From Dehalococcoidia bacterium (GTDB lineage: Bacteria; Chloroflexota; Dehalococcoidia; UBA3495), in contig JASMCQ010000017.1 of assembly GCA_030753265.1 (NCBI GenBank), positions 1 to 36,061 of the forward strand: 36,061 nt of DNA, in the 5' to 3' direction. The position numbers were made by a program, and so were the translations under genes. A model generated the notes under the pieces. The model had not been told where the DNA came from. It made no database searches and worked only from the letters and a program-made list of their open reading frames with translations. Shown in pieces: positions 9,295 through 28,539 of the stretch; positions within the stretch are counted from its first letter, which is position 1, and the number at the start of each line of letters is the position of its first letter.

Positions 9295-9337
9295 GGTAGC
9301 GGCCGGCCATCGGCTAACAGCTATCAGCGAACAGCAG

Positions 9338-9373
9338 TGAGCCATCGGCGTCGATCCGCGAGCCGATGGCTCA
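9338..9373. repeat. Perfect 12-bp inverted repeat between PAL-like gene and partner B
   Basis: Arms tgagccatcggc (9338-9349) and gccgatggctca (9362-9373) pair exactly around 12 nt. The preceding 9311-9332 (ctaacagctatcagcgaacagc) resembles the repeats at 12058 and 24056. It ends 18 nt before the partner B start, so it could influence that gene's translation or act as an attenuator. It also argues against the upstream GTG at 9337 as the start. Confidence 0.6.
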
Positions 9374-9390
9374 TCCTCAAGGGGGGCACG

Positions 9391-10455
9391 AGTTTGAGCG
9401 ATCTTGGGGAAACCACCACCGTCCGTTGGGATAGCGCCCTGGAGGCCATCGAGCGCTGCCACGAGTTGGGCTGGACCGATGGCCTTCCCGTGGCGCCTCC
9501 CACCGAACACCGGGTCGGCCAGTTCGTGGAATCCGTGGGACGCCCCGCCTCAGAGGTGGTGGGGGAGCTTCCGGAGCGCCGCCGCGAGATAACCATCGGT
9601 AAGGTCGCCGCCAACGCGGTGATGGCCGGGTGTCTCCCGGAACATCTGCCGGTGCTCATTGCCACCACCGAGGCGATGCTGGACCCCGTGTTTAACCTGG
9701 TAGGGCCTTCATCCAGTATGGGCGGGTCGGCGATCCTGGTCATCGTCAACGGCCCGGTGGTTCAAGAGCTGAACATCAACACCAGGAACAACCTCTTCGG
9801 TCCCGGCAACCGGGCCAACATGACCATCGGCCGGGCGGTTCGTCTGATCCTGATGAACGCCTGCGCCGCCATCCCCGGCCTGTTCGACCGCTCGGTGCTC
9901 GGCCATCCGGGCAAGCTCTCCTATTGCATCGCCGAGGCGGAAACCGAGACCCATTGGACCCCATTGCACGTGGAGCGTGGCTTTGCTCCCGGCCAGAGCG
10001 CGGTGACCGTGTTCGCCTCCGAGGCCCCCCGGCAGGTCCGGGCCCGTGGGGAGCCAGAGGCCATCCTGCACTCTGTCGCCGACGTGGCCTCCAGCCTGGG
10101 TACCAGCATGTCCACCTCCGGCTCCGTGGGCGATCCCAGCGTCCGGATACGCCAGGGAGAGATCGTGGTGACCATCGCCGGCAACTCTACCCTCTGGCGC
10201 GACTGGACCAAAAAGCAGGTCCGCAACTATCTTCACACCCGAATCCGCCGGTCGGTGGCCGATTTGAAAAACGCGTGGGTGTTGCCTGAGCCGGTTGAGC
10301 CGGGAGACGACGGGAGGTTCCTGTCTCTGGTGCCGGAGCCGGAGGACATCCTCCTGGTGTTCGCCGGAGGCGTGGAGGCCAACATGTCCTCGGTCATCCC
10401 CAGTTGGGGACCGAAGGTCGGTTCCACCGCGGTGACCAAGGCGGTCGCAAATTGA
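9391..10455 (+). CDS. Partner B: conserved protein of unknown function, homologous to the C-terminal domain of the 26.9-kb selenoprotein
   Basis: I do not recognise a named family. The 354-aa product aligns along its length with residues ~195-547 of the fused selenoprotein at 26896-28539. Shared landmarks are GWTDG followed by P and PPT (residues 26-37), AANA-MAGC, NGP, GPG---NM---RA-RLI-MN, the Trp-x-Pro-x-His segment (W-T-P-L-H here) followed by RG, and VTVF. No signal peptide or membrane segment is visible. The start is taken as TTG 9391, preceded by aaggggg at good spacing; the GTG at 9337 lies inside a repeat. It is 40 bases upstream of the DUF1326 gene and in the same run as the UGSC selenoprotein, so a joint function is likely. 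No catalytic motif is evident to me. Confidence 0.85.
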   Translation, partial: SLSDLGETTTVRWDSALEAIERCHELGWTDGLPVAPPTEHRVGQFVESVGRPASEVVGELPERRREITIGKVAANAVMAGCLPEHLPVLIATTEAMLDPVFNLVGPSSSMGGSAILVIVNGPVVQELNINTRNNLFGPGNRANMTIGRAVRLILMNACAAIPGLFDRSVLGHPGKLSYCIAEAETETHWTPLHVERGFAPGQSAVTVFASEAPRQVRARGEPEAILHSVADVASSLGTSMSTSGSVGDPSVRIRQGEIVVTIAGNSTLWRDWTKKQVRNYLHTRIRRSVADLKNAWVLPEPVEPGDDGRFLSLVPEPEDILLVFAGGVEANMSSVIPSWGPKVGSTAVTKAVAN

Positions 10456-10495
10456 GGGCATCCGGGCGGGCGCCCCACACTGAAGCGAGGCACGC

Positions 10496-11104
10496 TTGGC
10501 TGAGAAAAAGACGTACCTGCTGAAGGGGACCCTGTTGGGGGCCTGTAACTGCGGCTGGGGTTGCCCCTGCAACTTCGAGGAGCCGCCCACGCCGGGATAC
10601 TGCGAGGGCAACTATGTATGGCACGTGGAGCATGGCCACTACGCCGGGACCGCGTTGGACGGGAGCACTTTTGCCATATACAACAAATTCCCCGGCGCCG
10701 TCCACGAGGGAAATGCCACAACGGTGGTCATGATCGACGACCAGGTACCTCTGAAGCAGCGGACCACCGTAGAAGCCTTGATCCAAGAAGTCCCGCCTTT
10801 CAGCGTCTTCATGGACCTCACTTCCGACTTTCGAGGTTTTCGCTACCTGCCCATTAACCTTCGATTGGACGGAATCCGCAGCAGAGTAACTATCCCCGGC
10901 GTCCTGGAATTGCAGTTCGGGCCGATGAAGAATCCCGTGACCGGCGAAGACGAGCTGGCAACCTTGAACAAGCCGACGGGGTTCACGTCGAATGTCCAAG
11001 AGCTATGCTCCGCCGATACCCACCGGTTCAACGTCGAGGGCATGACCTTCGACTACAGCGGAAAATACGGGGAGTTCTCTCCCTTCGTCTATTCTCCCGC
11101 GTAG
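10496..11104 (+). CDS. DUF1326 domain protein with CxCx3CxC motif
   Basis: The 202-aa protein opens with a Cys-rich motif: Cys17, Cys19, Cys23 and Cys25 in GACNCGWGCPCNF, then Cys36. This is the signature of DUF1326, a family of unknown function in which the Cys cluster is thought to bind metal or take part in redox chemistry. The rest (VIDDQVPLKQR, GVLELQFGPMKNP) looks like beta-rich sandwich sequence. The TTG start at 10496 lies 40 bases after partner B; the region upstream has a weak gaagcgagg ribosome-binding site. It is sandwiched between partner B and the UGSC selenoprotein, which suggests a shared redox or metal-dependent task. That role is inference. Confidence 0.88.
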   Translation: MAEKKTYLLKGTLLGACNCGWGCPCNFEEPPTPGYCEGNYVWHVEHGHYAGTALDGSTFAIYNKFPGAVHEGNATTVVMIDDQVPLKQRTTVEALIQEVPPFSVFMDLTSDFRGFRYLPINLRLDGIRSRVTIPGVLELQFGPMKNPVTGEDELATLNKPTGFTSNVQELCSADTHRFNVEGMTFDYSGKYGEFSPFVYSPA

Positions 11105-11172
11105 CGCCGAATCGATCATCTGCCGGCGAACCGGAGTTTGAAGCAGTTGTCCCACGGCCGAAGGAGGAAATC

Positions 11173-11718
11173 ATGCCTGAAGGAACCGAACACATATTGG
11201 TCAACCCGACCACCGAAGCCATCATCGCGCCTTTCGACGGCGCGCCCCGGCTGCCCACCCTGGCGGGGACCCGGCTGGGTGTCATTGACGATAGCAAACG
11301 GAACGCCGACGTGCTGCTGGAGGAGCTGGTGGACCTTCTCCGGACCCGGTACGAGATCTCCGACGTCAAGTGGCACCGGAAGCCCAGCGCTTCCAAACCG
11401 GCGGACCCGGAGGTGATCCGGGAGCTGGCGGAGAGCTGCGACTCGGTGATCGTCGCCGTCGGCGATTGAGGCTCCTGCAGCGCGTGCAGTGTGCACGACG
11501 GCATCCACGTGGAGAACGCCGGCATACCCTCGGCCACCATCTGTACCGATCGCTTCCATCCAACCGCGGCGGGCATGGCCAAGATGTGGGGCGCGCCCGA
11601 CTACCCCACCCTGTTCACCGAGCATCCCATCGAGAACCTCACCCGGGAGCAGCTGCGCCTCCGGGCCGAGGAATTGGCGCCACAGGTGGTCCGGGTCCTG
11701 GTCGGCGACGGGCGTTAG
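11173..11718 (+). CDS. UGSC-family selenoprotein (in-frame TGA = selenocysteine)
   Basis: The gene is 181 codons long with a TGA at 11467-11469 that is best read as selenocysteine, residue 99. The sequence around it is VIVAVGD-U-GSCSACSVHDG, the exact motif after which the UGSC family of (seleno)proteins is named. Cys102 and Cys105 follow Sec99 closely and could form a selenenylsulfide, as in other redox selenoproteins. After the TGA the frame stays open for 82 more codons, with convincing protein (IPSATICTDRFHPTAAGMAK). The ATG at 11173 follows aggagg. Without recoding, an annotator would report a 98-aa protein and a separate 75-aa open frame at 11491. A hairpin just 3' of the TGA may be the SECIS element. 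Substrate and reaction are unknown. The selenium machinery (selA, selB, selC, selD) is not in the window. Confidence 0.92.
11483..11497 (+). promoter_or_regulatory. Candidate bacterial SECIS hairpin, UGSC gene
   Basis: Downstream of the TGA, cgtgca (11483-11488) pairs perfectly with tgcacg (11492-11497) around the loop gtg, so the loop begins 19 nt after the TGA. Bacterial SECIS elements are hairpins in the coding region shortly after UGA, with a G in the apical loop. An alternative stem ctgca/tgcag (11475-11489) overlaps it. Confidence 0.55.
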
Positions 11719-25457: not shown

Positions 25458-25978
25458 CGCGATTCTCCCCGCTGGTGCCGGCTCCCCGGTGCCGGCACTA
25501 AGTGCTCGAATGCGGCTGGAAAGTGCTGCCCGGACCGGCCGGCCGGACCGGCGCAATAATAACAACTGGCCCCAGGGGCGTCAATAACAGAGCGTGACCC
25601 GGTAGCCTGACCCATCCCGTCACCAGCGATGAAAGGGACCGGGATCGGCTCCTCTCGCATTCAACCCACCCATATTCCCCTCAAAGAAAGCAGGCACTCA
25701 TACCTGAATTGCCAGGGTCATATTGACCCAGCCAGCGGTATCGGCCATATAATAGCTCATCGTGGCCCAGGAAGAAGGAACCGGGATGAAGAAACAGTTG
25801 AATCAACCTGGAAGAGGAGACGCTGGGCTACACACCGCCGGACCGGGTCCGCGTCTTGACGCCCCGCATGCGCGAGGCGGGCGGGAGTCGTGACGGGCCC
25901 ATCCCGGCCGCGAATCGGTATGGGACGCCAGCGTCTCAGACCCGATCACAGACCCGATCAATTGAGGAGGTGCACGAT
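25458..25978. other. Divergent intergenic region between cupin genes
   Basis: No convincing gene was found in these 521 bases. A candidate promoter for the double-cupin gene lies at 25723-25753. The short repeated 'cagacccgatca' at 25938-25961 is a minor direct repeat. Confidence 0.5.
25723..25753 (+). promoter_or_regulatory. Candidate promoter for the double-cupin gene
   Basis: TTGACC (25723-25728) and a perfect TATAAT (25748-25753) are separated by 19 nt, slightly longer than optimal. The transcript would have a leader of about 220 nt. Confidence 0.45.
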
Positions 25979-26695
25979 TTGGAACCCATGATCAGGAACA
26001 TCAGCAGCTTCGGCACGCCGCTAACCTCGTCAGCCCGGCTGGTTTGGCTGGACGATAACCCCCCAACCTGCACAATGACCTACTCGGAGATCAAGCCCGG
26101 CAAGACCAGCATTCACCATATCCATCCCTGGGAGCACGAAGTCTACATCATCAGCGGGTCGGGAACCTTGGTGTGTGACGGCAAGGAGTACCCGGTAAGG
26201 GACGGTGACGCCCTCTACATACCGCCCAACGTGGACCACTATACCCTGAACAACGGGGGCCGGGAGGACATTCATCGTATCGAGGTCAACCACCTGATCG
26301 CCGCCCAGAGCGGCGGCGCGCAGAACGAAGGTGGGACCGGGACCGGTCAGCCCCCGGTGATACGCAACTACCGGGACTTGAATAAGGAAACAGGGCACGA
26401 AATCCTCGGCTCCAGAGACGGCGCGCCCAACTATTTGATGCTCTACAACGGCGCGATGGCGCCCGGCGCGGTCTCGCATCCCGACACCGGCGGGCACAAC
26501 CATCCTTGGGAACACACGGTGTTTGTCCTGGACGGGCAGGCCACTCTGGTCTGCGGCGGAAAGGAGTACACTGTTTCCCAAGGTGACGCCATTCTGGTGC
26601 CCCCTAACGTTCACCACCAGTGGCGCAACAACAGCGACGCGCCCATGAACCGGGTGACCTTCAATCCGCTGTCGTCGGAAGGGCACGGCGGATAG
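25979..26695 (+). CDS. Double-domain cupin protein
   Basis: The 238-aa protein has two similar cupin barrels. Domain 1 has HHIHPWEHEVYIISG (residues 46-60) and IPPNVDHYTLNN. Domain 2 has GHNHPWEHTVFVLDG and VPPNVHHQWRNN. Both keep the HxH...E and later His metal ligands, so each can bind a metal. The pattern HPWEH is repeated, showing the domains arose by duplication. It could be a bicupin dioxygenase or isomerase; no substrate can be named. The TTG at 25979 is preceded by gaggagg 8 nt upstream; the open frame continues back to 25856 without family-like sequence. It lies 200 bases upstream of the fused selenoprotein on the same strand. Confidence 0.87.
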   Translation: MEPMIRNISSFGTPLTSSARLVWLDDNPPTCTMTYSEIKPGKTSIHHIHPWEHEVYIISGSGTLVCDGKEYPVRDGDALYIPPNVDHYTLNNGGREDIHRIEVNHLIAAQSGGAQNEGGTGTGQPPVIRNYRDLNKETGHEILGSRDGAPNYLMLYNGAMAPGAVSHPDTGGHNHPWEHTVFVLDGQATLVCGGKEYTVSQGDAILVPPNVHHQWRNNSDAPMNRVTFNPLSSEGHGG

Positions 26696-26895
26696 GCCCT
26701 CGGCCCGGCTGCGTGGGGCCACGAATTCCAGGCGATGGCGGCCCTGGTTCGGGCGGCCCTTCGTTGGGCCGGGCGCATCGGCGACTTGACCGTTTGAAAC
26801 CCGGCGGCCTCCCGCTCGGATGATGAGAAGCGTGCGGCGTGTCCGCGCGTCTGAGAAACATGGAAGATGCAGACCACCGCATCAGGAGAAGGCAG

Positions 26896-28539
26896 ATGGC
26901 GAAGCTAGAGGTTTACATTCCCCAGGCGCCCACTGTGGGAACGGAACACCAGACACCGGCAGCACCCCGCATCGTTACCCTGGCAGGCATGCGGGTGGGG
27001 CTTCTTTGGAACCACAAGGCCCGCGGCGACGTCGGCCTGGCCGCAGTGGGCGAAGAACTCCAACGCCGCTTCAAGGGCGTCAAGCTGGTCCAGATCCGGG
27101 GCACCAACCCGACCAACGACCATGTGCTAGCGAAGGCGGTGGAGGAGTGCGACGCCGTAATCGGGGCCACCGCCGATTGAGGGGGCGGAACGTCGAGCCT
27201 GGTGCTCGACCAGCACAAACTGGAGCGGATGGGCCTCCCCTGCGTTATCATCGTGGCCGAAAAGTTCCGGGCCAGCGCCGAGACCCACGCCCGGGCTTTC
27301 GGCGCCGGCTCCTTGGCTTTTGCCTTCGTTCCCGATTGCTTCACCAGCATTCCGGATGATCAGGTGAGGGTCCAGGCCCTGGCTGCCTTCGAAGCAATAA
27401 TCGAGGGCCTCACCAGCCCCAGGATCGCCCCCTACACCGCGCCTGAGGCCCCGGCGCCGGAAACGGAGACATTTGAAGCAGAAGACCTTCTGGCCTGCTT
27501 CCACAAGATGAACCGGGTGTTCACCGAGCGGGGTTGGACCGACGGCTTCCCCTTGCTCCCACCTACTCGGGAAGCGGTGGATGATCTGGTCCGGGGCTCC
27601 GGGCGCGACCCCTCCGAAGTCGTTACAATCCTGCCGCCCGCCAGCGGCATCGCCACGGTCCTGCACATCGCCGCCAACGCGGCCATGGCGGGCTGTGTCG
27701 CGGAAGAGATGCCGGTCGTCCTGGCGGCGGTCAGGGCGTTGACGACGTACCCGTTTCCCAGCCGGACGGCGCTGGTGTCGACCGGGGGGTATGGCCAGCT
27801 CTACCTGGTAAACGGTCCCATCGGGAAGGCCCTCGAGATGAACTCCGGAACCGCGGCCCTGGTGCCGGGAGCGCCGTCTCGGGTGAACATGCGCCTCGCC
27901 AGGGCAATGCGGCTGATTGTCATGAACGTGGGGCGCGCCTATCCCACGCTGCTGGACGCGTCGACCGTCGGATCCCCCAGGAAATTCAACATGTTCGTCG
28001 CGGAGAACGTCGAGGCCAGCCCCTGGGTGCCCTTCCACGCCGACCGTGGCTATTCCCCCGAAGACAATACCGTTACGGTCTTCAATACCCTGAGCGACGT
28101 GGACATTCTGGATGTCTTCAACTCAGCGGCGGACGGCATCGCCAGGACCCTGGCCGCCTATTCGACCTATCCCAGCGGCGAGTTCCTGGGATGGGAAGAG
28201 AGGTGGGGGAAGGACACCAACCACTCCGCCAGGGTGCTGCTGCTTGTGGGTCCGGAACACGCCCAGATGCTGGCTGGGTCCGGGTGGACCAGGGACGGCT
28301 TGAAGAGATTCCTGCACGAGAACGCCCGCATCCCCGCCGCGTGGTTCAAGAACATCCATCGCAATCACCCGGAGCGCAACGCCCCGGAATACCGGTGGGT
28401 CATGGACGCGCCCGACGACCGGCTCATACTGGCGACGGAGTCACCGGAGATGTTCCACATCGCCGTGGTCGGGGGCACCGCGGGGCGAAGCCTCTCCCTA
28501 AAGTGCTACGGTTACCCGGTGACCGTCCGCGTCGACTAA
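26896..28539 (+). CDS. Fused selenoprotein: UGSC-like domain plus partner B domain (in-frame TGA)
   Basis: The gene encodes 547 residues with TGA at 27178-27180 read as Sec95. The first domain (residues ~25-175) is UGSC-like: EECDAVIGATAD-U-GGGTSSLVLDQ aligns with ESCDSVIVAVGD-U-GSCSACSVHDG of the 11.2-kb protein, with Cys85 matching Cys89. It lacks the SC and second Cys that follow Sec there. A Pro/Glu-rich linker (~177-194) leads to a C-terminal domain homologous to partner B (GWTDGFPLLPPT at 213-224, AANAAMAGC, LIVMN, RGYSPED, VTVF). The ATG at 26896 follows caggaga. Normal annotation would split it into a truncated 94-aa protein and a 445-aa open frame beginning near 27202. The function is unknown. 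Confidence 0.88.
27192..27210 (+). promoter_or_regulatory. Candidate bacterial SECIS hairpin, fused selenoprotein
   Basis: gtcgagc (27192-27198) pairs perfectly with gctcgac (27204-27210) around the loop ctggt. The loop begins 18 nt after the TGA and contains GGT, as in the loop of the E. coli fdhF SECIS. It lies in coding sequence (SSLVLD). Confidence 0.7.

Follow-up and report, generated by a model that had tools for sequence, protein, structure and literature searches.

A highly probable fused UGSC-family selenoprotein without the motif cysteine, encoded on a Dehalococcoidia contig

The subject of this analysis is a gene at positions 26896..28539, forward strand, of contig JASMCQ010000017.1 (assembly GCA_030753265.1, a Dehalococcoidia bacterium); positions 1 to 36,061 of the contig are referred to here as the window. 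In our opinion this gene almost certainly encodes a real selenoprotein. Its product, for which homologues were found, is 547 amino acids (aa) long and carries selenocysteine (Sec, U) at residue 95 through an in-frame TGA, in a UGSC domain that is fused to a second domain, partner B. Three residues after Sec (U+3), the place of the motif Cys of this family, it has Gly. The explanation that we favour, with a probability of about 0.6 for the whole of it, is that the UGA is decoded as Sec and that the two paired domains form an enzyme in which a nucleophilic Sec reductively cleaves a small organic acid. A fusion of UGSC to a second domain has been known since 2008; what is unusual in this copy is the loss of the motif Cys. 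With a natural member that is devoid of the supposed resolving Cys, the need for that Cys can be tested.

A Shine-Dalgarno-like AGGAG (26884..26888, forward strand) is located 7 nt upstream of the ATG at 26896. From 26824 to 28537 the frame of the gene contains only two stops, the TGA at 27178..27180 and the terminal TAA at 28537, and the first-pass annotation was right that the frame stays open for 452 codons after this sole internal stop; for random sequence of the same GC, p is ~2e-6. The G+C content per codon position is coding-like both before the TGA (0.73/0.45/0.78) and in the 300 bases after it (0.65/0.52/0.78). The UGSC profile PF24696 matches on both sides: model positions 5-92 are covered upstream of the TGA (46.4 bits) and 94-171 downstream (39 bits), so that the TGA fills the missing model position. 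Joined, the two pieces score 106.5 bits against a gathering cut-off of 25 and delimit a UGSC domain at aa 12-173 (26929..27414, forward strand). Hence the window does contain, as was claimed, a second selenoprotein of this family. The other is a stand-alone protein with the motif U-G-S-C at 11173..11718, forward strand (TGA at 11467-11469; PF24696, 198.7 bits). Since the Sec sites of the two proteins fall on one profile column, the proposed correspondence between them holds.

The fusion protein has in common with canonical UGSC selenoproteins (PF24696, NF041046) the profile match, the place of Sec, the fusion to a second domain and a hairpin resembling a selenocysteine insertion sequence (SECIS). 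Unlike them it has Gly rather than Cys at U+3, and with the UGSC (seleno)protein equivalog NF041046 it reaches 94.1 bits, below the cut-off of 125. Because the U-x-x-C motif that names the family is absent (it reads U-G-G-G here), we regard the protein as a variant and not as a canonical UGSC selenoprotein.

What do the homologues have at the site of the TGA? A protein search in which 7998 candidates were scored returned 43 relatives. Nine of these are full-length fusions (551-596 aa, 34-39% identical), and all nine have Cys at the position of U95 as well as at U+3. The survey of the family was wider, with 80 loci from a scan of genome contigs, 40 from whole genomes, and the window. It yielded 147 distinct UGSC domains, from the window and from 118 of these 120 loci, with Sec at the site in 138, Cys in five, Asn in two and Leu in two. 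Thus the alignment of homologues that had been suggested for U95 finds TGA or Cys conserved there (143/147). A Sec-type TGA occurs at the site in 136 distinct related domains, and all Sec sites read in related loci use TGA as the recoded codon. Two fused relatives, from metagenome-assembled genomes (MAGs) with similar isolate names, have Asn-Gly-Met-Gly replacing Sec-Gly-x-Cys (L049:8001-9620 and L056:391-2013); they are possibly a non-redox offshoot.

It could be argued that the TGA at 27178 is a true stop, and that we are dealing with a broken gene or with two genes, one of 94 aa and one of 445 aa starting from the GTG at 27202. Indeed, close relatives are represented in the database by just these two halves. 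The three closest relatives (92, 72 and 70% identical) are annotated as proteins of 445-447 aa whose first residue lies eight residues beyond the TGA position. With the N-terminal half as query, nine open reading frames (ORFs) were found, 62-90% identical, which all end at the residue just before the TGA position; the relatives of both halves were compared as proteins. According to the first-pass annotation, read-through would be refuted by homologues that stop at the TGA position or begin only beyond it. Such ORFs do exist, yet they complement each other as the two halves of a single profile. One N-terminal half (P0048) and one C-terminal half (P0003) come from the same source and from contigs of the same length, 9208, so probably from one contig, and the two are probably annotated halves of one gene. 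Moreover, a true stop would separate strand 3 of the model from the helix that belongs to it, and it is difficult to reconcile with TGA or Cys at this position in nearly all of the family and with the position-specific hairpin downstream of the TGA that is described next. We therefore consider a true stop very improbable. Reassignment of TGA throughout the genome has a still smaller chance, close to none: no support for it was found, and of 22 further ORFs regarded as genes of the window six terminate in TGA, which means that TGA is not reassigned throughout.

The hairpin was sought in the predicted fold of nt 7-48, counted from the T of the TGA, as a stem of 4 bp or more whose loop starts at +20 to +23. 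It is present at 77% of 207 distinct TGA sites of the family vs 24% (standard deviation 2.8) of synonymous-codon shuffles. In the fusion gene (27192..27210, forward strand) it is GTCGAGC-CTGGT-GCTCGAC, a perfect 7-bp stem with the apical loop CTGGT from +21 nt, matched by 2% of the 500 shuffles of this site. In the predicted fold of the 11.2-kb gene (11483..11497, forward strand) the loop GTG starts at +22 and is matched by 8.6% of shuffles. At the family's TGA sites the mean folding-energy z is -0.99 (standard error 0.07), compared with -0.02 to -0.36 for five further places within the family genes (119-138 each); the five Cys sites gave 0.87, -2.34, -0.38, 0.71 and 0.29. Regarding the machinery, of 33 genomes that contain the family 31 have SelB and 28 have tRNA-Sec above cut-off, vs two and five, respectively, of 14 controls (92 tRNA candidates scored per genome), although a few low-scoring tRNA-Sec matches may be tRNA-Ser. 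No tRNA genes were found in the window.

We now turn to the residues after Sec. The claim that GGGT stands in place of GSCS and that the resolving Cys is lost is correct: U95 is followed by G-G-G-T-S-S, with a Gly codon, GGA, at U+3 (27187..27189, forward strand), where 141 of the 147 distinct family domains have Cys. Among the Sec domains Cys is at U+3 in 134 of 138. The four others are the window protein, L047 and L074, which read U-G-T-S-C with the Cys shifted by one to U+4, and one copy in L041 (U-G-C-A). The window protein is the only one of the 138 with no Cys within U+4. In genome G001, of which 735 kb were read (one whole 359-kb contig and 19 pieces picked for their matches), 83 of 83 Sec domains have the U+3 Cys. 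On this comparison of sequences the window protein is a true outlier, represented by a single sequence, so that U-G-G-G may, but need not, define a subtype as the first-pass annotation proposed.

Could U-G-G-G be simply a decaying or mis-sequenced copy of U-G-S-C that has no functional meaning? It is known from one sequence only. Against this, at least two base changes are required to turn TGC or TGT into GGA, the reading frame is intact, and the database has a 92% identical relative of the C-terminal part and four at 85-90% for the N-terminal part. Further, Cys148, Cys201 and Cys537 are shared with the relatives at 70-92% and rare elsewhere. Decay or error thus seems to us rather improbable, although not to the degree of a true stop.

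Cys85 had been put forward as a replacement for the lost residue. This idea did not survive the survey: Cys is found there in 81 of the 143 distinct Sec or Cys domains, only four of which are without the U+3 Cys, so Cys85 is an ordinary residue of the family. Cys148, Cys201 and Cys537 are common to the three close relatives and otherwise rare (7/60, 7/60 and 4/53 aligned rows, respectively, counts that include the window protein and its close relatives). Judging from the alignments they are better stand-ins than Cys85, but unproven candidates only. We rate Cys148 best by its position in the structural model, since it follows strand 5 and should share the sheet edge with the Sec loop.

The structure prediction that had been proposed for both domains was run on all 547 residues and returned a confident model (mean predicted local distance difference test, pLDDT, 93.7; predicted template modelling score, pTM, 0.93) with a flavodoxin-like Sec domain. 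Strands and helices alternate in this domain, as they do in flavodoxins and receiver domains, and Sec95 is placed between strand 87-93, the third strand, and helix 96-111, whose dipole could stabilise a selenolate. As modelled, the domain seems at odds with the thioredoxin-like fold put forward in 2008. No thioredoxin is among the 50 structural matches listed, which does not exclude a thioredoxin-like fold.

The second domain, aa 190-547 (27463..28536, forward strand), resembles the separate partner-B gene at 9337..10455, forward strand (31% identity, alignment A4), so the description of the protein as UGSC fused to partner B stands. The window carries both forms of the pair, the unfused one at 9337-11718, with a gene for a DUF1326 protein (PF07040; 10496..11104, forward strand) between its two genes, and the fused one at 26896-28539. 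No Pfam family was found for aa 190-547 in a Pfam scan, and the structural matches of this domain are weak only. Its Cys267 (27694..27696, forward strand) is conserved, being invariant in alignments A1 and A2, present in at least 90% of the 58 rows of A4 and in 48 of the 60 rows of A3. A fusion of UGSC to a conserved domain named Unknown_1 was reported in 2008 (PMC2398784); partner B is probably Unknown_1. As to the question whether the fusion is conserved across genomes, fusion is common. In the parts of G001 that were read, 59 of 84 UGSC domains are fused to the partner and 23 more have a same-strand partner no further than 1.5 kb away; of the remaining two, one lies where a piece ends and the other has no partner. 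This near-obligate pairing suggests that UGSC and its partner are parts of one enzyme.

What may this enzyme do? In the accessible portions of the literature we found no reaction assigned to the UGSC family, and those of PMC2398784, PMC13188914 and PMC9312934 that deal with UGSC mention neither a loss of the motif Cys nor a link with GrdB. The profiles point to a possible link of this kind. In the surveyed genomes the matches to PF07355, the family of GrdB and PrdB, end just before Sec. When PF07355 relatives were read through their TGA and compared with UGSC by hhalign, Sec fell on Sec and the following helix and strand were aligned too, with a probability of 91% for six long relatives, 83% for six short ones and 95% for all twelve, all of these being small alignments. 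Controls with 30 column shuffles each gave at most 0.7% (vs 91%) and 2.6% (vs 95%). GrdB and PrdB have, as UGSC does, the Sec loop after a strand, then a helix and an E-x-x-G-I-P-T-V-like strand. The Sec of GrdB acts as a nucleophile. In three of the six long relatives the U+3 Cys is missing (UGTST, UGTST and UGTGT, two of them nearly identical), hence GrdB-like chemistry may tolerate the loss of Cys. A 2026 review (PMC13188914) ascribes substrate binding and ammonia release in glycine reductase to GrdB.

The genes around the fusions may point in the same direction. The 130 ORFs that neighbour 19 fused genes include nine ABC permeases of the binding-protein-dependent (BPD) type, eight tripartite carboxylate (TctC) receptors, four MmgE/PrpD proteins and four short-chain dehydrogenases/reductases (SDR), as raw counts with no background set. 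Together with the profile link, these neighbours make us favour reductive cleavage of small organic acids, although this mechanism, taken by itself, falls somewhat short of even odds. According to this proposal, the UGA at 27178 would be decoded as Sec with the aid of the hairpin just downstream, and the predicted flavodoxin-like alpha/beta domain would present Sec95 at the start of a helix, after the third strand. The second domain, nearly always paired with UGSC by fusion or as a neighbour gene, would form one enzyme with it and help to bind the small organic acid, in which Sec, a nucleophile like that of GrdB and PrdB, would reductively break a bond. The release of Sec via a selenenylsulfide would then fall to the U+3 Cys in canonical members; in the window protein another thiol (Cys148, Cys201, Cys537, Cys267 or an external one) would have to take over, unless no such release is needed. 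The profile link thus offers a concrete chemical hypothesis for the UGSC family. We would sooner doubt than accept its widest form, in which UGSC and its partner would be a large GrdB-like class of Sec enzymes that cleave diverse small carboxylic compounds, with well over 100 copies in single genomes, and in which some members have shed the resolving Cys, catalysis being sustained by Sec alone or by a relocated thiol.

Several results weigh against the explanation that we favour. The energy of the window hairpin is ordinary: dinucleotide shuffles are no less stable in 117 of 200 cases (in 190 of 200 at the 11.2-kb site, which is ordinary too), z is -0.15 vs synonymous shuffles, and a 63-nt fold favours another structure. 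The evidence on the Sec machinery comes from other genomes that contain the family. Masking of Sec, U+1 and U+3 lowers the probability of the GrdB match to 24% for the six long relatives and to 81% for the twelve, so it rests partly on the motif. UGSC also differs from GrdB and PrdB in that it has no PF07355 match, that its partner is not PF09338 and that pyruvoyl chemistry is without support. Ten fused members scanned at E up to 1 gave no match to PF07355; in the same scan all ten matched UGSC, with one weak match each to Acanthaporin and HD_assoc. PF09338, the family of the GrdE/PrdA partner, is not above cut-off in G001, the genome richest in UGSC, nor in G012, G019 and G356; it is above cut-off in G002, G003, G007 and G008. 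The older view is of a thioredoxin-like thiol/disulfide oxidoreductase, in which the U+3 Cys is the redox partner of Sec, a role that another Cys would take in the window protein. Such a pair was proposed in 2008 from a presumed thioredoxin-like fold (PMC2398784), and UxxC in 134 of 138 distinct Sec domains is in its favour. We consider it unlikely.

The window also has cupins, a thiolase, an enoyl-CoA hydratase and a hydantoinase B-like gene, and a double-cupin protein is encoded directly upstream of the fusion gene (25856-26695). Short GrdB-like proteins with frames through TGA and U-P-x-C motifs (L125-L130) may be a separate selenoprotein group.

UGSC was among the most abundant selenoprotein families of the Global Ocean Sampling (GOS) samples, according to PMC2398784. 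G001, the genome of L001, is the Chloroflexi MAG NC_groundwater_644 of ~5.0 Mb (loci L141-L158 and L163-L181). From 208 first-look candidates 150 UGSC matches were scored there, all above cut-off, with an in-frame TGA in 146 of them; in the 735 kb, TGA is at the motif in 83 of 84 UGSC domains. The median identity to the nearest sibling is 68%, with one pair only above 90%. SelB is present; tRNA-Sec was not found among the 92 candidates scored, and the MAG may be mixed. The copy number exceeds the largest bacterial selenoproteome given in the 2026 review (63 genes; PMC13188914), a record that likewise comes from a MAG. Two MAGs labelled Betaproteobacteria, G002 (L002) and G007 (L008), have 58 and 29 UGSC matches, with one TGA in every match among those listed.
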